From IMG/VR virus record IMGVR_UViG_3300045968_000249, positions 1 through 50,409 of that record: 50,409 nt of DNA; one strand, written 5' to 3'. The notes under the pieces were generated by a model. That model saw only the letters and a program-made list of their open reading frames with translations. It searched no databases and was not told the DNA's origin. The number at the start of each line of letters is the position of its first letter. Position 1 is the first letter of the stretch. The position numbers and the translations under genes were made by a program. The stretch is from a virus. Shown piece by piece: positions 7,588 to 50,409 of the stretch.

Positions 7588-7616
7588 TTGACAGCCACCA
7601 CATCTTGTGTTGTAAG
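7588..7616 (+). promoter_or_regulatory. Sigma70-like promoter ahead of scaffold and capsid genes
   Basis: TTGACA at 7588-7593, a 17-bp spacer, then TGTAAG at 7611-7616. It lies in a 108-bp gap before the scaffold gene. A copy of the 16-bp dispersed motif overlaps the -10 element and the expected start, so the promoter is probably repressible. Confidence 0.6.
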
Positions 7617-7628
7617 GTTTTGCCTGAC
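7613..7628 (+). promoter_or_regulatory. Dispersed 16-bp motif, site S2
   Basis: TAAGGTTTTGCCTGAC. It overlaps the -10 box of the promoter at 7588-7616, the position expected of an operator. Confidence 0.65.
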
Positions 7629-7641
7629 ATGCCTCTCGATC

Positions 7642-8601: not shown

Positions 8602-9906
8602 GTGACCGGAGCCGACACACAGGTCATTGATGGGATTCTCAAGGACTACTACGAGGATTTCGTCTCTGAACAAGTCAACAACAAAAACCAGCTGAAAGAC
8701 CTGTTCGGGTTCAAGGACTCGGACTTCGCGGGTAGGGAAAAAGTCTACACCGCGCACGTGTCGCGCAACACCTCACCCTTCTTCAGCGGTGAGGATGGCG
8801 CGTTCGCAGAAGCCGGCGCGCAGGGTCACGTCCAGGTGCGTGTCGGGCAACGGAAGCTGATGGGCCGCATCCGCCTCACCTATGAGGCGATGCACGATTC
8901 GTTGCAGAGTCGCGGGGCCTTCAAGCAGGCGCGGCGCGACGAGAATCAGGGGCTCATCAAGGACATCGCGCGCAAAGAGGAATACGCCCTGGCCACCGAA
9001 GGCCGCGGCATTCTCGCGCTCATCGATGAAGTCACGCCCTCAGGCGATACGACCCTCGAGCTCGACGCGCCCGGCGGCATCACCAACGACAACTTCGGCA
9101 ATCGCTTTTGCCAAGTGGGTATGTATGTCGGGGCGGTCAATCCTGGCACCGGCGCATTGCGCACCACCGTGCGGAAGATCACGGCCTGCAACAGCGATGG
9201 GACCGACGTCACCCTCGATGGCGTCGGCGGCTCGACCTGGGCAAACAATGACTACCTCGTCCAGTGTGCCAATAGCGACGTCACCGATGTGCTCGATTCG
9301 AGCTACGAGCATGCGTTCTGGGGCCTGATGGCCCTGGTCGATGACGGCACCTATCGCAACAACTACTTCGGCGTCGACCGCTCCGTCTGGGGGAACTTCT
9401 CGAGCTACGTCAAGCCCTCGACCGGCACGCTGAGTTTCGACCTGTTGCAGCAAGTGGCCGACATCCTCGATCAGAAACTCGGATCGACGATCGACCTGCT
9501 ACTCGCGCATCACTCCACGCGCCGCCTCTACATCAAGATGCTGCTGGGTGACCGCCGCTTCGTCGGCAATCACGTGCAGCGTCCCGATGGCGGCACGGTC
9601 GCCTTTACCCAGGGCGATCTGACGATGGGCGAAGTGCCCATCAAAGCGATTCGTGATTTCCCACTCGACGTGATGATGCTGTTGGACAAAGCGAATTCCG
9701 GCTGGGTGGTCTACGAATCAGAAAAGGGCAAGTGGGTGGACGAGGACGGTCAGATTCTCGTCCGCGCCGGCGTCGGATCCGCGGCGCGCGATGCCTTCGA
9801 GGCGTGGTACCGGATCAGAAGGCAATATCACCTCAGGTATCCGGGGTACAACGCACGACTCGACGCGATTACCGGTCAGTCGTTGGTCATCGTCCGCGCT
9901 GAATAA
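8602..9906 (+). CDS. Major capsid protein (HK97-like fold inferred)
   Basis: A 434-residue product, the usual size for an HK97-fold shell protein, with a GTG start preceded by GAGGGA. The early EHAHVSRNTS-like region, the RKLMGRIRLTYEAM stretch (about 77-90), a spine-helix-like KQARRDENQGLIKDIARKEEYALATEG and the late SVWGNFSSYVKP and DLLLAHHSTRRLYIKMLLGDRRF segments fit capsid proteins of podo- and siphoviruses. It follows the scaffold and is followed by a strong hairpin terminator, as expected for the most abundant virion protein. No N-terminal prohead-protease sequence is evident. Confidence 0.85.
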   Translation: MTGADTQVIDGILKDYYEDFVSEQVNNKNQLKDLFGFKDSDFAGREKVYTAHVSRNTSPFFSGEDGAFAEAGAQGHVQVRVGQRKLMGRIRLTYEAMHDSLQSRGAFKQARRDENQGLIKDIARKEEYALATEGRGILALIDEVTPSGDTTLELDAPGGITNDNFGNRFCQVGMYVGAVNPGTGALRTTVRKITACNSDGTDVTLDGVGGSTWANNDYLVQCANSDVTDVLDSSYEHAFWGLMALVDDGTYRNNYFGVDRSVWGNFSSYVKPSTGTLSFDLLQQVADILDQKLGSTIDLLLAHHSTRRLYIKMLLGDRRFVGNHVQRPDGGTVAFTQGDLTMGEVPIKAIRDFPLDVMMLLDKANSGWVVYESEKGKWVDEDGQILVRAGVGSAARDAFEAWYRIRRQYHLRYPGYNARLDAITGQSLVIVRAE

Positions 9907-16909: not shown

Positions 16910-18511
16910 ATGCCGTTCTATCTGATTCACGCCAACACGTCGCTGCAAAAGGTCACGCCGGCCGGCGACATCACCACGTTGACGCTGCCCTCTGGTGTCA
17001 CGATGGTCGACACGCGGCCGGCACGGTTTGCCACTTTGGCCGGCACCGTCGTGGTCGTCAACGCCGTCTCGAAAAACGTGGCCATCAACGCGGCCACACT
17101 CGCCGCGCGCCTGTTGACCATCGATGGGCCCTCGGCCGCGCCGACTGTCGCGGCGGCCACGTCCTCCGGCAGCTTTTTCGGCAGTTATCGCTTCGCCTAC
17201 ACCTACGCGATTACCAGTGGCGACACGGTGCTCTCCGAAAGCCCGTTCTCGCCCATCGCCGGCCCGCTGGTGCTCCAGAATCGCCAAGTGGCCATGTCAG
17301 CCGTCACCGTTTCCGGCACGAGTGGAGTGAATGCGCGCATCATCTACATGACCACCAACAACGGCGAAACCTATTTCGAAGTGGAGCGCATCGAGGACAA
17401 CACTACGACCTCGGTCACCTTCGACGGCTCCGATTACGACCTGGGCTTGCTCGCGGAGGCGTCCAGTCACGCCGAGAACCCACCGGGCCACGACACCACC
17501 GACCGCTTTCGCATCATTACCGCCTGGAAAGACCGGCTGTTCGCCAGCCCGGACGACGATCCCGATGATGTGTGGTTCTCCGGCAACCGCGAAGTGTCGT
17601 CCTGGGGGGATGTCTTCACCGTGCCCCCCGCGGGCGAAGACCAGTACGGCGTGACCGCCTTCATGGCGCGACGCGACGAACTGGTGCTGGCGAAACGTCG
17701 CCGGCTGTGGAAACTGGTGGGCGACACGCCCGAAGACTACGAGCAAGTCTCGATTGATCCGGCGGTGGGCGCGATGGTGCAGGAAGGCTGCATCGTCATT
17801 GAGGATGTCTGCTATTTCCTGGGGGAAAACGGGTTTTACGAATACGGCCCGGCGGGTGTCCGCAACCTGTCGCGCGAGAACGTGCATCCCTGGTTCACGA
17901 GCGATGATTTTTTCAACCGCGCCAAATTCGCAAATGCCTTCTGCAAGTACAACGCCTTGTACGACACCATCGAATTGCACCTCGCCGCCGCCGGATCCAC
18001 CGACATCGACCGGTGGGTCACCTACCATCGCGGGAGTCAGCAGTGGTTCGGGCCGCATAAGACGGGGGCCTTCACGCCGACTGCTGGGGCGACGATGGAC
18101 GACACCAACGGCTTCAATCGCCCCGTCATTGGCTCGAGCGCCGGATTCATTTACGCCGAAAACTACTCGACGGCTTCGGACGACGGGACGGCGATTGAAT
18201 TCGATGCGATTCCGAAATGGCACAGCGGCAACACGCCCGACATTCAGAAGCTGTTTGGCCAAGCGGCCATCCTCTGCGCGATTGAATCGGGTGGCACGCT
18301 GAGTCTGGTCCCGAAAGTGGGGGGCCTGGACGCTTCGGCCCAGACCACCATTTCGCTCGCGCTCACCAGCGGCCAGCATCGCACCCGGCATTTGGGAACC
18401 GGGCGCTTGCTGCAAATGCGGTTCTACAACAACGAGAACAATCGGGCGGTGATGCTCTACGGCTACGAAGTGCCGTTCCATGAACTGTCGCGGCGGTCGG
18501 TAGCGCCATGA
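16910..18511 (+). CDS. Putative tail nozzle/hub protein
   Basis: A 533-residue beta-rich product. It begins PFYLIHANTSLQKVTPAGD, and carries a middle FRIITAWKDRLFASPDDD, VWFSGNREVSSWGDVFTVPP, DELVLAKRRRLWKL series and a late FLGENGFYEYGP region. This is the pattern of podovirus nozzle or stabilisation proteins that form a propeller-like hub below the adaptor. Its place after the adaptor and before the fibre fits. It overlaps the next gene by ATGA. Confidence 0.7.
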   Translation: MPFYLIHANTSLQKVTPAGDITTLTLPSGVTMVDTRPARFATLAGTVVVVNAVSKNVAINAATLAARLLTIDGPSAAPTVAAATSSGSFFGSYRFAYTYAITSGDTVLSESPFSPIAGPLVLQNRQVAMSAVTVSGTSGVNARIIYMTTNNGETYFEVERIEDNTTTSVTFDGSDYDLGLLAEASSHAENPPGHDTTDRFRIITAWKDRLFASPDDDPDDVWFSGNREVSSWGDVFTVPPAGEDQYGVTAFMARRDELVLAKRRRLWKLVGDTPEDYEQVSIDPAVGAMVQEGCIVIEDVCYFLGENGFYEYGPAGVRNLSRENVHPWFTSDDFFNRAKFANAFCKYNALYDTIELHLAAAGSTDIDRWVTYHRGSQQWFGPHKTGAFTPTAGATMDDTNGFNRPVIGSSAGFIYAENYSTASDDGTAIEFDAIPKWHSGNTPDIQKLFGQAAILCAIESGGTLSLVPKVGGLDASAQTTISLALTSGQHRTRHLGTGRLLQMRFYNNENNRAVMLYGYEVPFHELSRRSVAP

Positions 18512-19554
18512 AGCTCCAGAAGCCGCACCCGATTCGTGACCTCGAGATTAAGGAAACCGCGCAGGACATCGACGATAACTTCGATGCGGTCTGGGGCGCA
18601 CTGCGCGAGCTCAATAGCCGCCTGGGCGTGAGTGAAGACGACATCGCCATCCTCGAGGCGGCTCCCGATCCGGTCCAGAAAGTCATTCTCGCGCTCGACG
18701 GCACGCCGGGCGATGATGGGATGCCGGGCCCCCGCGGCGCAACGGGCATCACCGGGGCGACCGGGGCCCTGGGCCCGCCAGGATTCGACGGCGCGGACGG
18801 CGCGGATTTTTGGGGCGTTCTGGCCGCCGCCAGCAGCGAAGGCGAAGTCACCTTCACCACCACCGGCAACATTGACGACCTCGACTTCGGCAACGTGCCG
18901 CTCATCCGCATGAACAACGCGTCGCTTGCGACGCTGCGCGGACTACGCGCCGGGCGCGCGGGCCAGCTGGTCACGATCGTGTCGGTCGGGGCGGGCCAAG
19001 TGGATTTGGCCCATCAGAACGCCGGCTCCGTGGCCGCGAATCGCCTGACCAACATCGCGACCAGTGCCGTGACGTCGTTGTCCGCCGGCACCGGGCTCGC
19101 CACGTTCCGCTACGACAACACGACGCAAAGCTGGCGGCTCATCGAGCATGAACAAGGGGCCTGGATCACGCCGTCGTTCAGTGCCGGCGATTACACCGCC
19201 AATGGCGCGATGACCTGGACGGTCGCCTCTGGCGACGTCGCGCTGATGGCCTACTACCTCAAAGGCCGTCAACTCTCGGTCCTGTTCGAACTCAACACCA
19301 CCACGACGGGGGGTGTGGCCTCGACGGCGCTGCGGCGCACGGTGCCAGGCGGCTTCACGATTGCGAGCGGGGTCCGCGCGTTTTACCGCGTCATCAATGC
19401 CGGCGTGACCGTCACCTCACCGCTGGGCATGGCCTACGCCGCCGCCGCGTCCACCTATATCGAATTCCTGCGCGATGGCAGCGGCACGGCCAATTGGACC
19501 ATCGGCACTGATAACGTCGGCATTCTCGGCAGTCTGTTTACCGACGTGCAGTAG
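18508..19554 (+). CDS. Collagen-like tail fibre protein
   Basis: A 348-residue product. Residues 1-50 are a helical attachment segment. From Gly65 to Gly98 there are twelve consecutive Gly-X-Y triplets, a collagen-like trimer rod found in many phage fibres. A C-terminal beta domain follows, including GQLVTIVSVGAGQVDLAHQN and a WRLIEHEQGAWITPSF stretch typical of fibre knobs. It probably forms a trimeric fibre or spike for adsorption. It starts in an ATGA overlap. Confidence 0.82.
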   Translation: MKLQKPHPIRDLEIKETAQDIDDNFDAVWGALRELNSRLGVSEDDIAILEAAPDPVQKVILALDGTPGDDGMPGPRGATGITGATGALGPPGFDGADGADFWGVLAAASSEGEVTFTTTGNIDDLDFGNVPLIRMNNASLATLRGLRAGRAGQLVTIVSVGAGQVDLAHQNAGSVAANRLTNIATSAVTSLSAGTGLATFRYDNTTQSWRLIEHEQGAWITPSFSAGDYTANGAMTWTVASGDVALMAYYLKGRQLSVLFELNTTTTGGVASTALRRTVPGGFTIASGVRAFYRVINAGVTVTSPLGMAYAAAASTYIEFLRDGSGTANWTIGTDNVGILGSLFTDVQ

Positions 19555-19563
19555 GAGGCTTGA

Positions 19564-19902
19564 ATGCCCGGAACCATTCGCACGCTTGCAGGACCGCTGG
19601 CCCTGACCAACACCTACACCACCAACGTCTTCAACGATACGAACACTAACGTGTTCAACGTCGTGCGGCACATTCACATCGCGAACAAGACGTCGGCGGC
19701 GGTGACCTTCCGCCTCTATATGGGCACAACCGGCGCGAACACCGCCGGCACCGAACTGTTCTACGACAAATCGGTCCCGGCGTTCGATTACCTCGATTGG
19801 TATGGCTTGCTGCGCATGGCCAGTACCGATTTCCTGGTCGGCGGGGCGAGTGCGTCGACCTCGCTGACGATCACCATCATGGGCGAACGGATTCCGGTGT
19901 AA
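19564..19902 (+). CDS. Putative beta-rich fibre-associated virion protein
   Basis: A 112-residue beta protein with AGGAGG in the short gap upstream. It has VRHIHIANKTSAAVTFRLYM followed by VPAFDYLDWYGLLRMASTD, resembling the small beta-sandwich proteins at 11518 and 12550. Its stop codon lies inside a copy of the 16-bp dispersed motif. A fibre or decoration accessory is inferred. Confidence 0.65.
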   Translation: MPGTIRTLAGPLALTNTYTTNVFNDTNTNVFNVVRHIHIANKTSAAVTFRLYMGTTGANTAGTELFYDKSVPAFDYLDWYGLLRMASTDFLVGGASASTSLTITIMGERIPV

Positions 19903-19915
19903 GGTAAAGCCTCAC
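19900..19915 (+). promoter_or_regulatory. Dispersed 16-bp motif, site S3
   Basis: TAAGGTAAAGCCTCAC, with one change in the CCTGAC arm. It overlaps a stop codon and sits 17 bp before the next start. It separates the structural genes from the Gly/Pro-rich and ejection-protein genes. Confidence 0.5.
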
Positions 19916-19931
19916 GAGCCAGGAGAGCATC

Positions 19932-32230: not shown

Positions 32231-32257
32231 CCGTGCGCAAAAGAAAACCGGTGAGCA

Positions 32258-32273
32258 TCAGGCAAAACCTGAC
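32258..32273 (+). promoter_or_regulatory. Dispersed 16-bp motif, site S5
   Basis: TCAGGCAAAACCTGAC, a near-symmetric copy (TCAGG and CCTGA arms). It lies between the left attP arm repeats and the tRNA-derived core, where binding could affect integration or read-through from the right. Confidence 0.6.
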
Positions 32274-32332
32274 AACCTCAATCAAAAATCCTAAGAAAAC
32301 CGCTAGTATCCGAAAAGATTCGGTGCCAAGGA

Positions 32333-33911: not shown

Positions 33912-34271
33912 CTAGTCCCACAGTTTGGCCAGCCTCTCATTCAGTTTGTCGAATTTCTCGTTCAATTCCGTGACTCCTGCTTCGATTCGCCCAAGCACGC
34001 CGGGCGAATGGGGGGGATTGGGCAAGGGCAACGGATGTTGCTGTTGCGATGGCGTCGGTTCCGTGGCCGGCTGCTGCTGGTGCATGGCGGCCGCACCAGC
34101 CGGTGACGCTGCGAAGGCTCTAATTTGCGCCTCGTCGTACATGCGAAATATTTTCGTGGCACCGTTTTTCGGCGGTCGCAGATTGGTGAGTTTTCCTTGA
34201 TCCGTCAGGCGAATGATTAATTGTTTTGAGACACCGAGTAATCCGACCACTTGGTCAAGCGTAAGTAGCAT
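33912..34271 (-). CDS. Short form of the HTH protein (internal start)
   Basis: Starts at ATG 34271 in the frame of the longer gene. CGAAAGGGG lies 7-8 bp upstream, the same leader element as seen before the integrase and several other phage genes. The 119-residue product would be the HTH (about 1-55), a Gln/Pro linker and a C-terminal coiled coil, a complete small DNA-binding protein. It may be the main product, or one of two forms. Confidence 0.5.
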   Translation of the reverse strand: MLLTLDQVVGLLGVSKQLIIRLTDQGKLTNLRPPKNGATKIFRMYDEAQIRAFAASPAGAAAMHQQQPATEPTPSQQQHPLPLPNPPHSPGVLGRIEAGVTELNEKFDKLNERLAKLWD

Positions 34272-34910
34272 AGTTGTTCCCCTTTCGTGGTTAGCGTAGC
34301 GCCTTCGCACGCGTCGGAGCGTGACCGACATGACTTGCGACGACGGCAACACCATCGGCATCGGAATTTCTTCTATTTCGCTAGGGGCCCACGCCCACTC
34401 CGGTTTCCACCAAATTGGTTCGGCTGCACCCAATTCAGTAGTCGTGCCCACGAGTAAATCGGGATCCACCCGCTGATAGGGCGTTTCGTCATCGATGTCG
34501 ATGACCCTGCCTTCGCGCACCAGACGGACTCGTGCCCGATGCTCTGCCTCACGCTGTGCGCGCCGCTCTTGCTGGCGCAGGCACCTGAAAAACTTGTCTC
34601 GCCGCGTGACCTCCATCCGGCGTCTGACGATGAGCCAATTGGCGAAAGATTCCCGATGCGCGCGGTCGCGTTTCGCAGCCTCGTCCTCCCGGTACGTATC
34701 ATGGTCATCTAACCACGCTTCGTAACGCGTGAGCGGCCCATGCTCCGGCAGCTGGTTCAGCGCCAGCCACGTCAGATAGACGTCGTAGGATTCATTCGCC
34801 TGCTGTTCGAGCGGATGTGTCGCGAGAAACTCTTGACAGAGGCGACAGGTTTTCGGGAGCGCCCCTTCATAATGGTCCAAATGCATGCGATTACTGATGA
34901 GCGTCATCAT
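33912..34910 (-). CDS. HTH-containing protein with internal in-frame start
   Basis: A 332-residue product starting in an ATGA overlap. Residues 1-213 are charged and helical, with a CRLCQEF pair near the start and a long Arg/Glu-rich helix (about 85-125). Residues 214-332 start at an internal ATG (34271) and contain a MerR-like HTH (LTLDQVVGLLGVSKQLIIRL) followed by a Gln/Pro-rich linker and a final coiled coil. A strong SD precedes the internal ATG, so a 119-residue short form is probably made too. It could be a regulator of the integration module. Confidence 0.65.
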   Translation of the reverse strand: MMTLISNRMHLDHYEGALPKTCRLCQEFLATHPLEQQANESYDVYLTWLALNQLPEHGPLTRYEAWLDDHDTYREDEAAKRDRAHRESFANWLIVRRRMEVTRRDKFFRCLRQQERRAQREAEHRARVRLVREGRVIDIDDETPYQRVDPDLLVGTTTELGAAEPIWWKPEWAWAPSEIEEIPMPMVLPSSQVMSVTLRRVRRRYANHERGTTMLLTLDQVVGLLGVSKQLIIRLTDQGKLTNLRPPKNGATKIFRMYDEAQIRAFAASPAGAAAMHQQQPATEPTPSQQQHPLPLPNPPHSPGVLGRIEAGVTELNEKFDKLNERLAKLWD

Positions 34911-35161
34911 CGCAGCCCCGGCTCCACCCATCGCACGTCCTCAGCGACTTCCTTCATGAACTCCGTAAACTTCCGCTTCGAGGCCAGTGCCCGCCGGCAA
35001 TCGAACAGGCTCCGCGTCGCCTGCCGACCGCCCCACTGGAAATCGATGCTGCCAGGACGCGCGAGCACCGAGCCATCGAACCGCGTCACCCACAAATGCG
35101 TATAGAGCTTGACGACTTCCGTCGTGCTACGACGGTGCAACGACTGGAATGGTTTCGCCAT
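34907..35161 (-). CDS. Hypothetical protein in the replication operon
   Basis: An 84-residue product beginning MAKPFQSLHRR, with a mixed beta/alpha pattern (VVKLYTHLWVTRFDGSVLAR) and a helical KRKFTEFMKEVAEDV near the end. It overlaps the 3' end of the preceding gene by 35 bp and the next start by ATGA. No family is recognised. Its start is uncertain because no strong SD is seen. Confidence 0.6.
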   Translation of the reverse strand: MAKPFQSLHRRSTTEVVKLYTHLWVTRFDGSVLARPGSIDFQWGGRQATRSLFDCRRALASKRKFTEFMKEVAEDVRWVEPGLR

Positions 35162-37492: not shown

Positions 37493-38593
37493 TTACCCTT
37501 CTTCACCCGGTTCCCTGCCTTTGGGCTTGTCTGGTTTGCCGAAGTCAATATCATCGGCGGTCAAGGCGGGTTGGTGCGCCCGCGGCACTTCATGCCGCGA
37601 TAACTGTTCCTGTCGCGCCAAGTCACGCGCACTCGGCGTCGGGGGATGCTCCGGCCGCGGATCGTGCAGCGGTTTCACGACCTTTGGGCCCGGCAGTTTC
37701 GCATCGCCTTTCGCCGTCTGTGCCGGCTGCGTCATCTCCTTGGCCAGCTTGCGCGGCGGGCCCTTTTCCAGCTTTTCGGTCAGCTGGTCCAGCGCCGCCG
37801 GCGGTTTCGTGTCGCCCCCACCGACCCCAGGCGTCGCCGCCGTCGTCTCGAGCGCCGGTATCTGCATCACTTCTTCGACCAGTTCATCGATGCCGGCCGT
37901 GGCCCCCTGGCCCACGGCATCGATGCGGTCCTCTCGCGCGAGCACCGCTTGCAGTTCGGTCGATTTCGGGAGCCACTTACTGAGGCGACGCACGCCGGTT
38001 TTTCTGGCCATCATTTCGTAGTCGGTCACCCAGGGCCCATCGTTGGCGGCACGCGAGCGGGCGCGGATCTTGTCGACTTCCTGTCTGGACATCACCTCGA
38101 AGACCGGCACCAGACCATCGCGGTCGACCAGCTTCGCTACCGCGTAGACGTAGACCAGTTCGCCTTTCTCCACCTCCGTTGACGGCTTGTGCACAAGGCG
38201 TTCAGTCAAGCCGAGCTCGTACTCAAAGGTGTCTTTGGCGTAGACCGCGCGGGCGACGACGCTTTTCACATCCGGGGCGCGCATCGCCAAGGTGCAGAGT
38301 CCCTGATAGCCGATGATGAGTTGACAGGTTTTGCCATACGGCACGAGGTAGGCTTGCGCGAGCCCAGGATCGAGCTCGAGGCCATAGGCGGCGGCCTGCA
38401 TCATCGCGCCCATCACCGACTGTGGCGTGCAATCGAGCAACTTCGGTTTCGTCGCAAACAGCGTCAGGGCCGTCCGCGCGAAGCGGATCGGGTCAATGCC
38501 CCGCGGGACGGCCTTTGCGATTTCGCCGGCTTGACGCTGCATCAGGGCGCGCATTTCGACGAGCTTCTGTTTGAGGGGTACCAGTTCGGACAT
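37493..38593 (-). CDS. recT: RecT-family single-strand annealing protein
   Basis: A 366-residue product. The first about 230 residues match RecT: LTLFATKPKLLDCTPQSVMG, AAAYGLELDPGLAQAYLVPY, LIIGYQGLCTLAMR and a late KTGVRRLSKWLPKS. The remaining about 130 residues are Pro/Lys-rich and disordered-looking, longer than usual. RecT anneals complementary strands and works with an exonuclease, here the YqaJ protein. The two are separated by a sugar-modification cassette. The start overlaps a Zn-ribbon gene by 101 bp. Confidence 0.93.
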   Translation of the reverse strand: MSELVPLKQKLVEMRALMQRQAGEIAKAVPRGIDPIRFARTALTLFATKPKLLDCTPQSVMGAMMQAAAYGLELDPGLAQAYLVPYGKTCQLIIGYQGLCTLAMRAPDVKSVVARAVYAKDTFEYELGLTERLVHKPSTEVEKGELVYVYAVAKLVDRDGLVPVFEVMSRQEVDKIRARSRAANDGPWVTDYEMMARKTGVRRLSKWLPKSTELQAVLAREDRIDAVGQGATAGIDELVEEVMQIPALETTAATPGVGGGDTKPPAALDQLTEKLEKGPPRKLAKEMTQPAQTAKGDAKLPGPKVVKPLHDPRPEHPPTPSARDLARQEQLSRHEVPRAHQPALTADDIDFGKPDKPKGREPGEEG

Positions 38594-38693
38594 CTTTCAT
38601 CGCTCCGTTCCACTGCTTGCCGCAGTGCGTGCACCGATCAATGGCCATTGCGTTCCAATGCCCGCACGAGGCGCAGTTCCACTGAATTCCCAT
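38493..38693 (-). CDS. Small double-CxxC zinc-ribbon protein
   Basis: A 66-residue product with CASCGHWNAMAIDRCTHCG (two CxxC pairs, residues 7-25) and a basic, disordered tail. Its ATG overlaps the stop of the upstream membrane gene (TAATG), and its 3' part overlaps the recT start by 101 bp in another frame. It probably binds one zinc ion. Its function is unknown; it may act in translation coupling between the two genes. Confidence 0.6.
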   Translation of the reverse strand: MGIQWNCASCGHWNAMAIDRCTHCGKQWNGAMKDVRTGTPQTEARRNARPDAASSRRNRKGRPAGH

Positions 38694-39535
38694 TACGCCC
38701 CCCGATAGGGATTGCACAGATGCAGCGCCAGCAGCACCGGCCACCATTCGGCGGGAATGGGCGCGGCCAACGCGGCGGGAATGAGCGCCGGCGCAGCCCA
38801 CTGCTGGATGCGCGCCGTATCGGTCGCGATGGCCAGCGGGAGCGTTGCTACCCCGTAGACCACGACCGTCGTCAGCCAATCGCCCAGCAGCGCCAGTGGT
38901 AGCAGCACGCCCCACGGCAGCAGCATCGAATAGGGATTCAGCCATTGGCCGCGCCGTCGCTCGAGACACAACCACGGCGTCTGAATCCACACCGGATCCG
39001 CGGCGGTGGTCGGCCGATGCAGAAAGGCCCGCGCGATGGGGAAGACCAGCAGCCCCACGAGGGGCCACCAGCTGCGCGCGTAGATCGCCGCCCACACCGG
39101 CGCGGATTCGCGCATCGCGCCCAGGAGTAGGAAGCTCACCGCGAAGGCGAGCGGCATCGCGGTTGCGACCCAGGCCAACCCGATCGCGGCGGCCATCGCC
39201 AACGGATCGACTAGGACGGGACAGCGCACCGAGAACCGCGCGCCGCCCGGCAGCGCCAGCAACAGCAGCGAGGCCCGCGCGTCGCCGGTCAGGCCGGCCA
39301 CCAGCACCCCTTGCGCCACGAGCCCGGTCACTGTGGCCACGCGCCACCGCCGATCACTGGTGCCCACCACCCACGGCACCAGCGGGCGATAACAGAAGGG
39401 CGACGGCACCCGGTGCCCGCGACCAAGCGCGAGGTAATACGCACTGTCAGGCGCATGCGTCGGCCGTTCATCCAGCGTGAGCACCATCACGACGAGGCAA
39501 CTCAGGCACGCGGCGAGTAGCAGAGTCATCGTCAT
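38693..39535 (-). CDS. Polytopic membrane protein, putative GT-C-like
   Basis: A 280-residue, very hydrophobic protein with about six to eight membrane spans. A first-loop motif (PDSAYYLALGRGHRV, then CYRPLVPWVVG) resembles the acidic-Tyr loop and YRxLxP element of membrane GT-C glycosyltransferases and related proteins. It is encoded just after an acetyltransferase that it overlaps by 68 bp, and with a GT-A enzyme upstream. It may transfer or export a modified sugar across the membrane. The GT-C label is tentative. Confidence 0.6.
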   Translation of the reverse strand: MTMTLLLAACLSCLVVMVLTLDERPTHAPDSAYYLALGRGHRVPSPFCYRPLVPWVVGTSDRRWRVATVTGLVAQGVLVAGLTGDARASLLLLALPGGARFSVRCPVLVDPLAMAAAIGLAWVATAMPLAFAVSFLLLGAMRESAPVWAAIYARSWWPLVGLLVFPIARAFLHRPTTAADPVWIQTPWLCLERRRGQWLNPYSMLLPWGVLLPLALLGDWLTTVVVYGVATLPLAIATDTARIQQWAAPALIPAALAAPIPAEWWPVLLALHLCNPYRGA

Positions 39536-40085
39536 AACGGAATTCCACGGACATCCGGTCCCCGCAGATTGTGCAGTGGTAAAACATGAAGCCGATCCAG
39601 GCCATCGGATGCCCCTGTCGGCAGACCCACCCGACTTGACGGGCCGGATTCCCCTGCACCAGCGCATGCGACAGCACGTTGTCGGTCACCACCGCGCCGG
39701 CCCCGACCATCGCGTGCATGCCAATGGTGACGCCGCAACGAATCACCGCGCCCGCGCCGATGGAGGCGTAGTCGGTCACGAAGGTTGGGACACGCGCCCA
39801 GCCACTTTCCGGATGGCTGCGTGGATACAGATCGTTGGTGAAGACGACGGACGGACCGACAAAGGCCCCGCGGCAGATTTCCACGCCATCGTAGATGCTC
39901 ACGTTGTTCTGAATCTTGGCCATCTCCCCGATGACGCCTTCGATGTAGCAGTTCTGCCCGATGCTCACATCGGCCCCGATGACGGCCGTTTCGCGGACAT
40001 GCGTGAAATGCCAGATCTTGGAGCCCGTACCGATCTTCGCCCCCCGGTCGATCACACTGGTGGGATGGGCAAAGTAGTCGCTCAC
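39468..40085 (-). CDS. Hexapeptide-repeat sugar N-acetyltransferase (WbpD-like)
   Basis: A 205-residue left-handed beta-helix enzyme. It opens YFAHPTSVIDRGAKIGTGSK, then IWHFTHVRE, SIGQNCYIEGVIGEMAKIQN and VEICRGAFVGPSVVFTNDLY, the layout of acetyl-CoA-dependent WbpD/WlbB-type enzymes that acetylate the amino sugar of O-antigen precursors. Hexapeptide repeats run through about residue 160. The C-terminus has a C-x8+-CTICG-like patch. The GTG start overlaps the upstream stop (GTGA). It would modify a UDP-sugar used in host surface polysaccharide or virion glycosylation. Confidence 0.88.
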   Translation of the reverse strand: MSDYFAHPTSVIDRGAKIGTGSKIWHFTHVRETAVIGADVSIGQNCYIEGVIGEMAKIQNNVSIYDGVEICRGAFVGPSVVFTNDLYPRSHPESGWARVPTFVTDYASIGAGAVIRCGVTIGMHAMVGAGAVVTDNVLSHALVQGNPARQVGWVCRQGHPMAWIGFMFYHCTICGDRMSVEFRYDDDSATRRVPELPRRDGAHAG

Positions 40086-40483
40086 GAATTCGCCTCGGCA
40101 CTGTCATCGAAGTCCAAGTTCTCGAAGGGAAATTGCGTTTGCAATTCGGCGTCGCTCATCCGGCGGTTTTCGATTTCATCGCCGGTGTCATTGCGGACCA
40201 GCACCGCGCGCTTCGCCGTGTAGTCGAAGTAGAGCGTGCATTCGACATCGATGGAGCGCCGCCCACTCGAGATAATCTGCGCGACGCCGTTGCGTTCCGT
40301 CTCGAGCCGCGCAAGGTCGGCTTTCGCTTCCGTCTTCCGCGCCTTCTCCGCTTCTTCGGCGGCATTGATTTCGTTTTGCACGTCGCCCAGGCGGCGGGCC
40401 ATCGCCACCATTTCCGCATCCGTCAGGGTCACCGGCAGCGTGCGCGTGATTGTCTTACTCGCCGTCTTCGCCTCAGTCGTCAT
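40082..40483 (-). CDS. Coiled-coil protein beside the sugar cassette
   Basis: A 133-residue product. Residues about 25-70 form a charged coiled coil (EAEKARKTEAKADLARLETE), followed by a beta region (RRSIDVECTLYFDYTAKRAV) and an acidic tail. Proteins of this build are common between RecT and exonuclease genes in phages. Here the acetyltransferase and membrane genes separate it from recT. Function is unknown. Confidence 0.62.
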   Translation of the reverse strand: MTTEAKTASKTITRTLPVTLTDAEMVAMARRLGDVQNEINAAEEAEKARKTEAKADLARLETERNGVAQIISSGRRSIDVECTLYFDYTAKRAVLVRNDTGDEIENRRMSDAELQTQFPFENLDFDDSAEANS

Positions 40484-41133
40484 AGGACGTCCTCACTCGC
40501 CGGATTGCGCAGACCCACCGACCAGCCTTTGTCCGGGTCATGCACGGGCCAAATTTCCACCGGCGTGATATGGCCCATCTGCGCATCGAAATTGACGTGA
40601 AGCGGAATGCCCAACTCGAGCAACCGTTCACAGAACGCGATGTCTTCGCCCTGCCGTTCGGTGCCCCGATTACGGAACCAGGGCGGGCCGGTCAGATCCA
40701 AGACATCACGACGAATCAACATGCCCGCACCGCCGGCAATGTCGATTTGCATCAGCCCGCGTTGATGAGGCGTCGGCGCAAGGTTTTGCATTTCGCCGTT
40801 GTCGGGCCGGCGGTAGAGCACTGAGGTATGCGGCGCGGAGCGCTTCAAGACGAACGGCACGACCACCGGCACGCCACTCGCCCATAGCTGGTCGATGATG
40901 GTCGGCGCGAAGGTATGATCGTCGCCAATCACCCAGGCCCAGGCCGCATTCGGACACCCTTCCAGGCCGCGGAGGATCGACCGGTTGATGTTATGCGTGA
41001 CGTCAGGGCCAGCCGTGGAAATGATGACACTGCCTTTCGGCAACGCGCCGGCGAGCCGCGCCAACGACGCAAAAAACGCGTTGAAGCGCGGCTGATGGCC
41101 GGTCGGCACGGCAACGATCCCCGGTGGTGTCAT
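40480..41133 (-). CDS. Glycosyltransferase-like protein (GT-A fold)
   Basis: A 217-residue product. WVIGDDHTF holds an Asp71-Asp72 pair in the position of the GT-A DxD nucleotide-sugar site. GGAGMLIRRDVLDLTG and GEDIAFCERLLELGI (Glu163-Asp164) follow, then a His188 in DAQMGHITP. These are the hallmark segments of small family-2-like enzymes in phages. It probably transfers a sugar to a lipid, a surface glycan or a virion protein. The ATG lies 2 bp inside a copy of the 16-bp motif (S6). Confidence 0.78.
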   Translation of the reverse strand: MTPPGIVAVPTGHQPRFNAFFASLARLAGALPKGSVIISTAGPDVTHNINRSILRGLEGCPNAAWAWVIGDDHTFAPTIIDQLWASGVPVVVPFVLKRSAPHTSVLYRRPDNGEMQNLAPTPHQRGLMQIDIAGGAGMLIRRDVLDLTGPPWFRNRGTERQGEDIAFCERLLELGIPLHVNFDAQMGHITPVEIWPVHDPDKGWSVGLRNPASEDVL

Positions 41134-41145
41134 GTAAAACCTGAC
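41130..41145 (+). promoter_or_regulatory. Dispersed 16-bp motif, site S6
   Basis: TCATGTAAAACCTGAC overlaps the start codon of the glycosyltransferase gene (minus strand). The same stretch contains CCTGAC-AG-GTCAGG (41140-41153), a second inverted half-site, so the site may bind two dimers. Confidence 0.6.
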
Positions 41146-41163
41146 AGGTCAGGCCAAAAAAAA

Positions 41164-42090
41164 CTACTTCGCTGGCCGGCGTCGGAGGACTCGAAACTCC
41201 GACGCCGGCACGGTGTAGGCGGATCGTTGCTGATGCTTCCAGCTGTAGATCGCGCCGTTGGGCATGACGCACCCGACATTAAGCCCAATGAGCGCCTTCA
41301 GTTTGTTATCGCACTCATCGACAATCACACCGAGGCGGTCGATTTCCGCTTTCGCCGCCATGCGGGAATTGTCCAGGGCCGTCGCATCCTCGCCCCCCAG
41401 CGTGACGAATGCGCCGGTGCCTTCCTTGGGGAACAAGGCCGCCAGGGCATCGGCGGTCGCCTGCGACGCGTCCGGATCGGGCGGCTGCTGGTGCTGCACG
41501 CGATGCCAGAAGGCCGCTTCGTGCTCGAGCAATTTCGCGATGAAGCGGTCATTGCGCGGCATGTCGACCCAGAGAAACGACCGCCCACCAATCAGGACCG
41601 CCAGCGAGCCCCAGGCATAGCCGGTGACGGCTAATTGATGCTGTAGCTGCACCTGATATTCCAGTGGCGGTTCCTCCTGCCATTCGTCGCGCTTCCACTC
41701 AATCGCGTTTTTGAGCTCGAGCACTCCCAGCGATGCGCCGGCCACCGGTGTCGGGGTTTTCGCATCGGCGGTGACCATCACCTCGCGGTCGAGTGTCGCC
41801 AGCATCCACGGTTCGTCCCCGATGGCAATGGTCCAATCGCCAGGGTCGCTGGTTGTGCGTCCGGTTTCGTCTTCGTACTTGCGAGCAATCACCGGTTCCA
41901 GGCGATGGCCCCATTCGATCCATTCCTGTTCGTCTTGCGACAGCGCCAACAGCCCGACTTTCTCGGCGTACAGCTGAAAGGTGCTTTTCCAGCGGGACAG
42001 CCCTAAGAGCACAGGGGCATCAGAAGCGCCCACGCCAGCCCGACGAGCTTCGAGCCATTCGGCCCGGCTACTGCACTCTCGAGTATCCAT
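41164..42090 (-). CDS. YqaJ-family exonuclease
   Basis: A 308-residue lambda-exonuclease-like enzyme. RRAGVGASDAPVLLGLS is the family's N-terminal signature. Catalytic metal ligands are Asp101 (LATLDREV), Glu125 and Lys127 (LGVLELKN), followed by the YQVQLQHQLAVTG helix. A C-terminal about 90 residues (helical, then beta) may be a specificity domain. The enzyme chews 5' ends to make single strands for RecT. It ends 31 bp before the glycosyltransferase gene. Confidence 0.93.
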   Translation of the reverse strand: MDTRECSSRAEWLEARRAGVGASDAPVLLGLSRWKSTFQLYAEKVGLLALSQDEQEWIEWGHRLEPVIARKYEDETGRTTSDPGDWTIAIGDEPWMLATLDREVMVTADAKTPTPVAGASLGVLELKNAIEWKRDEWQEEPPLEYQVQLQHQLAVTGYAWGSLAVLIGGRSFLWVDMPRNDRFIAKLLEHEAAFWHRVQHQQPPDPDASQATADALAALFPKEGTGAFVTLGGEDATALDNSRMAAKAEIDRLGVIVDECDNKLKALIGLNVGCVMPNGAIYSWKHQQRSAYTVPASEFRVLRRRPAK

Positions 42091-43550: not shown

Positions 43551-44106
43551 AATGCCGCCGTAACCGGAAATTCACCTGATCCAAGTGATTCGAGAGTTTG
43601 CGGACCAGCGTTTTATAGGCATCACGCCGCCGGCGAGCCCGCCGAATCTGTGCCTCGAGCTCGACGCGCTTCGCTTCATCGCGATCTTTGGAGGAGGGCA
43701 GACGGTTGTAGAACTTGATCAACGCGGCATATTGAAAGCGTGGCTGCTGTTCAGGGGGATCCATCAGATGGGGAACGTTGAGCGGTTCGCCGGCCAGCTG
43801 CATAAAGCCGGCGAGAATCTGTTGCGCCAGATGCGGCGCGAAATCTTCCCACAGATGGTCCTCGCTCCAGCGGGTCGGGATATAGATCGTGAGCCAGCGT
43901 TTGGCCGGCTGCGCCCGGTAATGCATCAACCGCACGGCGTGGTGCTCGCGCACATGCAGCGTGATCGGTTTGTGTCCCTTCGTGGTGTAGACCGCGACGC
44001 ACTGGCGCAGGGCCAGCGGTTTGAGCGTGCGTGAGGCGATCGAGCTTTCGTTAACCAGTTCCACGGCCGCACCCGATGTCAGGAATTCGGCTCGACTGTA
44101 AGTCAA
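43522..44106 (-). CDS. First gene of the leftward operon, hypothetical
   Basis: A product of up to 194 residues. The longest reading starts at TTG 44106, inside a copy of the 16-bp motif; shorter GTG starts within the first 25 codons are possible. The sequence has a mixed alpha/beta N-terminal half (VAVYTTKGHKPITLHVREHH) and a very basic C-terminal helix (EAQIRRARRRRDAYKTLVRK). It may bind nucleic acid. No family is recognised. Confidence 0.6.
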   Translation of the reverse strand: MTYSRAEFLTSGAAVELVNESSIASRTLKPLALRQCVAVYTTKGHKPITLHVREHHAVRLMHYRAQPAKRWLTIYIPTRWSEDHLWEDFAPHLAQQILAGFMQLAGEPLNVPHLMDPPEQQPRFQYAALIKFYNRLPSSKDRDEAKRVELEAQIRRARRRRDAYKTLVRKLSNHLDQVNFRLRRHYAREAETAR

Positions 44107-44114
44107 TACCTGAC
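44099..44114 (+). promoter_or_regulatory. Dispersed 16-bp motif, site S7
   Basis: TAAGTCAATACCTGAC. It covers the start codon of the first leftward-operon gene and lies just downstream of the operon's probable promoter. Confidence 0.6.
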
Positions 44115-44126
44115 GAAGTGTGACAC

Positions 44127-44163: not shown

Positions 44164-44232
44164 TACGTCACGCATGCACGGTTGTTTACCGCACGTCTCG
44201 CATGCACGGTGGGCCACGTCTCGCACCCACGG
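44164..44232 (+). repeat. Three iteron-like 18-bp direct repeats
   Basis: Copies at 44164-44181, 44192-44209 and 44215-44232, consensus YACGTCWCGCAYSCACGG. The middle and last copies differ at two positions. They lie directly upstream of the leftward promoter. They could be activator sites or initiator-binding iterons. Confidence 0.6.
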
Positions 44233-44569
44233 TCGGGGGGCGGGGCCCGGGGCGGCGGCGGGAGCGGCGGGGCGAGGTTCTCGGAAGTGCGCGGGAATGC
44301 TCGAGGCTGCACCAACCGGCCCGGAAAACCACACAGTGTCCCACGACGGCTCGTGGTTGCACAGTGGGCCAAACGTCGTACGTGTATCGAGTCAGCGACA
44401 GTCCGGTACGGTTGACTTTAGTCGGAAAACGGCGCGAACAGGAAGACTTAGACGACTGAGACGCCGTGCCCAGCTGGACGGCACCAGGGCCCCGCCAGGA
44501 CGCGCCCGCGCCGGCCCCCAGGATGGGCCCAGGCACCCGCCGAACGCGCCGCTAGGGCCCGCCAGGGCA

Positions 44570-46920: not shown

Positions 46921-46945
46921 GGTTGTTATCCCTTTCGAAAGTTTG

Positions 46946-46961
46946 TAAGCAGAAACCTGAC
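46946..46961 (+). promoter_or_regulatory. Dispersed 16-bp motif, site S8
   Basis: TAAGCAGAAACCTGAC, in the 90-bp gap upstream of the DUF932 gene and downstream of the zinc-protein array. It separates the small-gene array from the DUF932 gene. Confidence 0.6.
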
Positions 46962-47010
46962 AACGCTACCACACGCCCGCGCGACCCGTCTCACCAGGAC
47001 GGCCCCGCGC

Positions 47011-50285: not shown

Positions 50286-50369
50286 TTCGGGCGGCCGTGA
50301 CACCGTTCGCGCGCAACTCGACCGGTGTCGGTCTGGGGGAAGCCTTTGAACGGCCGCCCGTTTGTAAAG

Positions 50370-50385
50370 TCAGGAAAACCCTGAC
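50370..50385 (+). promoter_or_regulatory. Dispersed 16-bp motif, site S11
   Basis: TCAGGAAAACCCTGAC, with near-perfect GTCAGG (50369) and CCTGAC arms. It faces site S1 across the genome join, 43 bp away, so the first late gene is flanked by two copies. Confidence 0.65.
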
Positions 50386-50409
50386 AATCGTGCTAGACTC
50401 CGCCGTTAG

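Follow-up and report, generated by a model that had tools for sequence, protein, structure and literature searches.

A predicted glycosyltransferase cassette between the YqaJ and RecT genes of a viral genome record and its capsid-linked relatives: a candidate virion-glycosylation module

The 50,409-base viral record IMGVR_UViG_3300045968_000249, analyzed over its whole length and called the window here, carries on the minus strand a recombination operon with the order YqaJ, GT-A, h133, AcT, polytopic gene, an open reading frame (ORF) with two CxxC motifs, RecT, and a helicase-loader/replication-type gene. The four genes from GT-A to the polytopic gene form a cassette coding for two predicted glycosyltransferases (GTs), a predicted sugar N-acetyltransferase (AcT), and the small protein h133. 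Relatives of the two GT genes lie directly behind the major capsid gene in most other viral loci. The features of the region (aa, amino acids) are listed below.

41164..42090, minus strand: YqaJ-family exonuclease, flanking the insertion upstream (Pfam YqaJ, E 1.6e-28; phrog_434, E 1e-72)
40480..41133, minus strand: predicted GT-A fold glycosyltransferase, 217 aa (homologue alignments, AlphaFold2, Foldseek)
40082..40483, minus strand: h133, 133-aa protein (phrog_12688, E 9.4e-6)
39468..40085, minus strand: AcT, 205 aa with a GTG start, probable sugar N-acetyltransferase of the WbpD/WlbB-like left-handed beta-helix type (Pfam Hexapep, E 1.2e-22; 3mqg)
38693..39535, minus strand: compact GT-C-like integral membrane (polytopic) protein, about 280 aa (viral relatives, alignment, AlphaFold2, Foldseek)
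38493..38693, minus strand: 66-aa ORF with two CxxC motifs, zinc-ribbon-like (ZnR; from sequence)
37493..38593, minus strand: RecT-family annealing protein, flanking the insertion downstream (Pfam RecT, E 7.1e-47; phrog_148, E 3e-76)

The interruption of the YqaJ-RecT pair by the cassette is real. In L002, L003, and L005, the only fetched relatives holding both genes, the gap between YqaJ and RecT measures 4, 2, and 0 nucleotides (nt), respectively, and contains no gene. This agrees with an earlier, sequence-only reading of the window, which named three of the cassette genes correctly and missed the fourth, h133. That reading also named an ancient recombination core, carried with the same genes by relatives, as a ground for rejection. 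Such a core was not seen, as the relatives of YqaJ and RecT were without the cassette genes and the relatives of the transferases were without YqaJ or RecT nearby. The cassette genes were read as a single translationally coupled unit because of their overlaps, which measure 4 nt at both the GT-A/h133 and h133/AcT junctions, about 60 nt between AcT and the polytopic gene, and 1 nt between the polytopic gene and ZnR. The 66-aa ORF gave zero matches in a Pfam search and runs about 100 nt into the beginning of RecT, and it may be spurious or shorter. The GC content at third codon positions (GC3) of GT-A, h133, and AcT is 0.74-0.78, compared with 0.74-0.77 for YqaJ, RecT, and the loader gene, so that the composition of these three genes bears no apparent mark of recent arrival. 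The GC3 of the polytopic gene (0.84) is above that of the other cassette genes and the neighbors.

Sequence libraries recognized the window GT-A weakly (Pfam, E 0.022; PHROG glycosyltransferase, E 0.006), and searches with this protein for close relatives in viral contigs, phages, and genomes found none. The family was reached through a seed alignment made from marginal phage hits, and at least 374 viral relatives were obtained by the search with this alignment. D70xD72, G134, GED 162-164, F167, C168, and H188 are conserved across 43 members. The AlphaFold2 model, with a predicted local distance difference test score (pLDDT) of 92.6 and a predicted template modeling score (pTM) of 0.90, has no membrane helix. 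Foldseek matched it to STIV A197 (E 2.6e-8) and also to LH3, Mimivirus R699, COLGALT1, GalNAc-T2, and POMGNT1, so that most of the top structure matches (LH3, COLGALT1, GalNAc-T2, and POMGNT1) are protein glycosyltransferases. On the basis of the alignment and the model, a GT-A fold with a DxD metal site and an acidic catalytic motif can be assigned confidently. The window GT-A is similar to the collagen/mucin-type protein glycosyltransferases, STIV A197, and Mimivirus R699 in its fold and DxD motif, and these are its best structural matches. However, it shares only 11-16% identity with them and consists of a single small domain. Most GT-A relatives without a membrane partner adjoin head, scaffold, protease, or fiber genes of several unrelated families.

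The polytopic protein had no match in any sequence library. Its gene starts near 39535 (or 39529) and not at 39667, because the homologue L095 has the same MTLLLAA N-terminus. A first scan for relatives with the window protein found none, and relatives were reached with a two-row alignment including a homologue from the mangrove-soil phage GX15bay, the single one among 50,697 phage records. Alignment-based scans then gave 29 and subsequently at least 144 viral relatives, while none was found in the genome contigs of 84,980 cellular species by a short-pattern scan, which does not prove absence from cells. In GX15bay (L091, MK557849; 182-18249), an environmental phage, the GT-C-like gene is located at one end, and about seven annotated glycosyltransferases and a methyltransferase are also present. 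In the family alignment, P29, D30, Y34, R50, W64, D110, and E143 are invariant, and D239 and R242 are nearly so. The AlphaFold2 model (pLDDT 88, pTM 0.87) was led in the Foldseek search of the PDB, by probability, by ArnT (0.96; TM 0.47), OST-A STT3 (0.84; TM 0.53), ALG3 (0.57), and ALG6 (0.38), with a best E of only 0.19. These matches weakly support a GT-C fold. According to the alignment and the model, the invariant P29-D30-x3-Y34 follows helix 2-22 and coincides with the beginning of helix 31-38, which would place the conserved Asp in the first loop after helix 1, as in GT-C enzymes. Among viral models, the matches included an uncultured Caudovirales protein (TM 0.73) and a protein of a Nitrosopumilus spindle-shaped virus (TM 0.59); the latter, BFVD A0A514K2W1, is an uncharacterized archaeal-virus protein.

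Compared with the GT-C superfamily (ArnT, STT3/PglB, ALG3, and ALG6), the window family is alike in its predicted fold and in having a conserved first-loop Asp beside a short helix. However, it is only about 255-285 aa long, is without a library match, and in most members appears to lack the first membrane helix. ORF starts were set mechanically and the loci are mostly metagenomic fragments, and on these terms 38 of 40 scorable relatives appear to begin at the conserved PDxxxY loop; 22 of the 38 are unable to extend even 15 residues, and the other 16 have no hydrophobic stretch there. The helix is kept in the window, L095, and L101. Among the relatives L095-L192, the N-terminal loop of the proteins that seem to be without helix 1 is net positive, raising the question of an inverted topology.

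AcT has its best PDB sequence match in 3mqg, a lipopolysaccharide-biosynthesis acetyltransferase (E 1.4e-39, residues 6-161), with which it has KIQNNVS.YD.V and GPS.VFTN in common. Its sequence thus indicates a left-handed beta-helix with the conserved core of WbpD/WlbB. It aligns with these UDP-sugar N-acetyltransferases over residues 6-161, but differs from them by a Cys/His-rich C-terminal tail and by the lack of WbpA/B/E partner genes in the window, where neither a DegT aminotransferase nor a sugar dehydrogenase was found among the Pfam hits. Since the aminotransferase partner is missing from the window, AcT likely acts on an amino sugar nucleotide of host origin. A viral relative with 46% identity (L090) is located directly after a DegT-type aminotransferase gene; the two genes, a DegT/WbpE-like aminotransferase followed by the AcT relative (L090:6859-8591 on a 104-kb viral contig), constitute a viral amino-sugar pair. 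Altogether, the three enzyme types named by the sequence-only reading, a GT-A-like, a WbpD-like, and a GT-C-like protein, were supported by Pfam, 3mqg, and AlphaFold2/Foldseek. Structure prediction, which it had named as a possible ground for rejection, favored the folds proposed for the two transferases, with firm support for GT-A and weak support for GT-C.

The gene context of the GT-C-like family was recurrent. There were 42 loci non-redundant at 80% identity, and 37 of them had enough upstream sequence. In 32 of the 37 loci, the GT-C-like gene was immediately preceded by the GT-A gene; the major capsid gene was just upstream in 34, and both were present in 32. The GT-A model used for these counts was built without the loci concerned. 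The capsid model was partly built from loci later counted, and PHROGs and newly added loci served as the independent check. In PHROGs, 17 of 21 upstream proteins belonged to phrog_10, major head protein, and many downstream genes were head-tail adaptors or tail terminators. AcT, RecT, YqaJ, and h133 were near none of the non-redundant GT-C-like loci. The window is the sole case seen with the pair in a recombination operon and with AcT between the transferases.

The distances of GT-A and GT-C-like proteins correlate across 18 loci (r 0.75), and none of 2000 permutations gave a correlation as strong. This bears on whether the cassette is a mosaic, in which GT-A, h133, AcT, and the GT-C-like gene arrived separately and do not form one pathway, with h133 being part of the recombination genes. 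Consistent with a mosaic, h133 weakly resembles recombination-associated families (besides phrog_12688, a family of unknown function, it has a weak match to the RecE-like exonuclease family phrog_434, E 0.052). In addition, the window GT-A and GT-C-like proteins have both diverged widely from their relatives (about 26% and about 38% identity, respectively), and all four genes occur together in no other locus. However, GT-A and GT-C-like genes are partnered in nearly all other loci and their divergences correlate, while in the window the overlaps couple the genes and the composition is uniform in three of the four. We therefore consider separate arrival quite unlikely.

The slot between the two transferase genes differs among loci. 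In L093, L115, L118, L121, and L143, it is occupied by a methyltransferase of a sugar-related kind (Methyltransf_24 type), and the order in L093 is capsid, GT-A, Methyltransf_24, GT-C, GT2, and head-tail adaptor. The same slot holds h133 and AcT in the window. Therefore, the slot for a sugar-tailoring enzyme seems exchangeable.

Based on sequences, predicted structures, and analogy, we propose, with about an even chance of being right, that the cassette is a relocated and enlarged copy of a widespread phage module for virion glycosylation, which would attach an N-acetylated amino sugar to structural proteins of the phage. AcT would N-acetylate the amino sugar nucleotide supplied by the host, and GT-A would move the N-acetylated sugar from the nucleotide onto a phage structural protein (the capsid or a collagen-like fiber), or onto a lipid carrier. 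The GT-C-like protein would add a further sugar at the membrane with polyprenyl-phosphate as donor, and the N-acetylated glycan on the finished particle, or part of it, would hide or tune its surface. As the operon is of early type and headed by S6, a palindrome at the cassette start, the enzymes could precede the structural proteins. Two genes of the window code for candidate acceptors.

8602..9906, plus strand: probable major capsid protein, 434 aa (a protein of the window falls in phrog_14242, major head protein, and this ORF was chosen for it from size and position; the capsid model derived from the relatives did not recognize it, and its gene has no glycosyltransferase neighbor)
18508..19554, plus strand: collagen-like protein, probable fiber, with 12 GXY triplets at 18700-18807

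A virion target is favored because the GT-A and GT-C-like pair normally lies directly behind the major capsid gene, because the GT-A model resembles protein glycosyltransferases, and because there is a parallel in the head operon of Corndog. In this mycobacteriophage of cluster O, an O-methyltransferase and three transferases are located between portal and protease, and the capsid seems to be modified (PMC4351075). Glycans have been shown on capsid and tail tube, as cited in later papers (PMC11600133, PMC12619734). The relatives (L093 and others) similarly have transferases and a methyltransferase inside the head-gene operon. In contrast, the copy in the window lies away from the structural operon and includes an N-acetyltransferase, no GT-C-like partner is described for Corndog, and tblastn with the GTs of the window, L093, and L110 gave no mycobacteriophage match.

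Several points weigh against a virion target. The window module adjoins no structural gene, since it lies between YqaJ and RecT. The placement of the window GT-A in its tree is weakly supported (55/45). Classical GT-C enzymes work on the outer face of the membrane and capsids form in the cytoplasm, so a role of the membrane partner in the virion is not obvious. The acceptor, donor sugar, and glycan of the cassette are predictions.

A rival reading is modification of the host envelope. Here, GT-A would make a polyprenyl-linked, possibly N-acetylated sugar, and the GT-C-like protein would attach it to a glycan of the cell surface at the outer face, so that superinfection is blocked or progeny are kept from adsorbing again; the capsid-adjacent site would reflect timing only. 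We regard this as less likely than a virion target but as a serious alternative. The GT-C fold suits a periplasmic, polyprenyl-phosphate-dependent transferase, and its best structural match, ArnT, modifies lipid A. AcT is of the lipopolysaccharide/surface-sugar type and its L090 relative follows a DegT/WbpE-like aminotransferase, and the window encodes an integrase, making lysogenic conversion possible. However, lysogenic conversion genes are not usually found amid the genes of a capsid operon, GT-A members without a membrane partner are tied equally to virion genes, and neither a GtrA-type flippase nor a membrane-anchored GtrB is present. The gtrABC set consists of GtrA, a bactoprenol-linked sugar flippase, GtrB, a membrane-anchored bactoprenol glucosyltransferase, and a serotype-specific polytopic transferase (PMC3688519). 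The cassette is like this set in that a phage pairs a cytoplasmic-side transferase with a polytopic protein predicted to be a GT-C-like transferase. However, GtrA is absent from it and had no family match among the window proteins scanned, GT-A had no GtrB or curated GT2 match, the cassette does not adjoin the integrase gene, and the copies of the relatives are in the capsid operon. Because flippase and membrane-anchored GtrB are missing, the cassette is unlikely to be a gtr serotype set, in agreement with the sequence-only reading. That reading had left O-antigen change and virion glycosylation level. The comparison favors virion glycosylation as a prediction, through the capsid-adjacent pair and the structure matches of GT-A.

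The recombination-gene neighborhood could instead reflect DNA metabolism, with the transferases decorating a hydroxymethylated base and so shielding the phage DNA. The neighboring genes do act on DNA, and DNA-modifying phage glycosyltransferases exist, as cited in PMC12619734. However, hydroxymethylase, TET/JBP-type oxygenase, and thymidylate-synthase homologues were absent among the window proteins scanned, the sole PhyH hint was a sub-threshold stretch inside RecT, and an integral membrane partner is unsuited to a DNA substrate. As no base-hydroxylating gene was found among these proteins, DNA hypermodification was set aside as very improbable.

A more specific form of virion glycosylation can also be imagined, although we think it unlikely to hold in full. 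The shrunken phage GT-C family, usually without helix 1, would together with GT-A provide self-contained, flippase-free glycosylation of virion proteins, and its catalytic loop may face the cytoplasm, the reverse of known GT-C enzymes. The window would then represent a module that moved with an exchangeable tailoring enzyme, the N-acetyltransferase replacing the methyltransferase.

Few phage isolates are known to have glycosylated particles, and the enzymes in these are soluble transferases. To our knowledge, a capsid-linked pair of GT-A and compact GT-C-like genes has not been reported earlier, and literature searches for it, with subscription journals mostly outside their coverage, found none. 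Phage-encoded glycosylation in general is already known. The recurrent order of capsid, GT-A, and GT-C genes (32 of 37 loci) would let virion or envelope glycosylation by uncultivated phages be predicted from sequence. The very small GT-C-like family, so far virus-only, would allow study of the minimum needed for membrane glycosyl transfer, and the window suggests that the module is able to leave the capsid operon and acquire a different sugar-tailoring enzyme.

The palindrome S6 overlaps the GT-A ATG (41133-41131) and thus lies at the head of the cassette, as the sequence-only reading had noted. It belongs to a dispersed family.

41128..41146, no strand assigned: S6, 19-bp palindrome TGTCAGGTTTTACATGACA (as read on the minus strand), belonging to the eight strong copies listed next
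2-20, 7611-7629, 19898-19916, 32256-32274, 41128-41146, 44097-44115, 46944-46962, and 50368-50386: the eight strong copies of the TGTCAGGTTTTACCTGACA-like 19-bp palindrome

On the minus strand, the motif reads TGTCAGG-N5-CCTKACA, with a five-base center. A description of S6 as a 14-bp palindrome occurring once was dropped, the repeated form being 19 bp. S6 scored 23.8 bits with a palindromic matrix built without it, and the maximum over 60 shuffles of the window was 19.9. Most of the eight copies are at or just 5' of gene starts on both strands, and the palindrome is likely an operator or promoter element. A helix-turn-helix (HTH) protein of the phage is encoded at 33912-34931. Separate control of the cassette through S6, put forward by the sequence-only reading, does not stand as worded, being drawn from the palindrome, and is plausible, no more. 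In cluster O mycobacteriophages, a 17-bp palindrome whose function is unknown is dispersed in an analogous way (PMC4351075, PMC11600133). Promoter and terminator scans of the window were at chance level, and its listing of direct and inverted repeats contained mainly chance matches. Three tandem 22-bp copies, CACGTCTCGCATGCACGGT-like, are present at 44164-44236, upstream of gene 44106-43522. In addition, a 627-aa protein encoded at 22-1905 on the plus strand has a C-terminus similar to the B-lectin domain, a mannose-binding type, with an E of 8.9e-7 that narrowly misses the Pfam cut-off.

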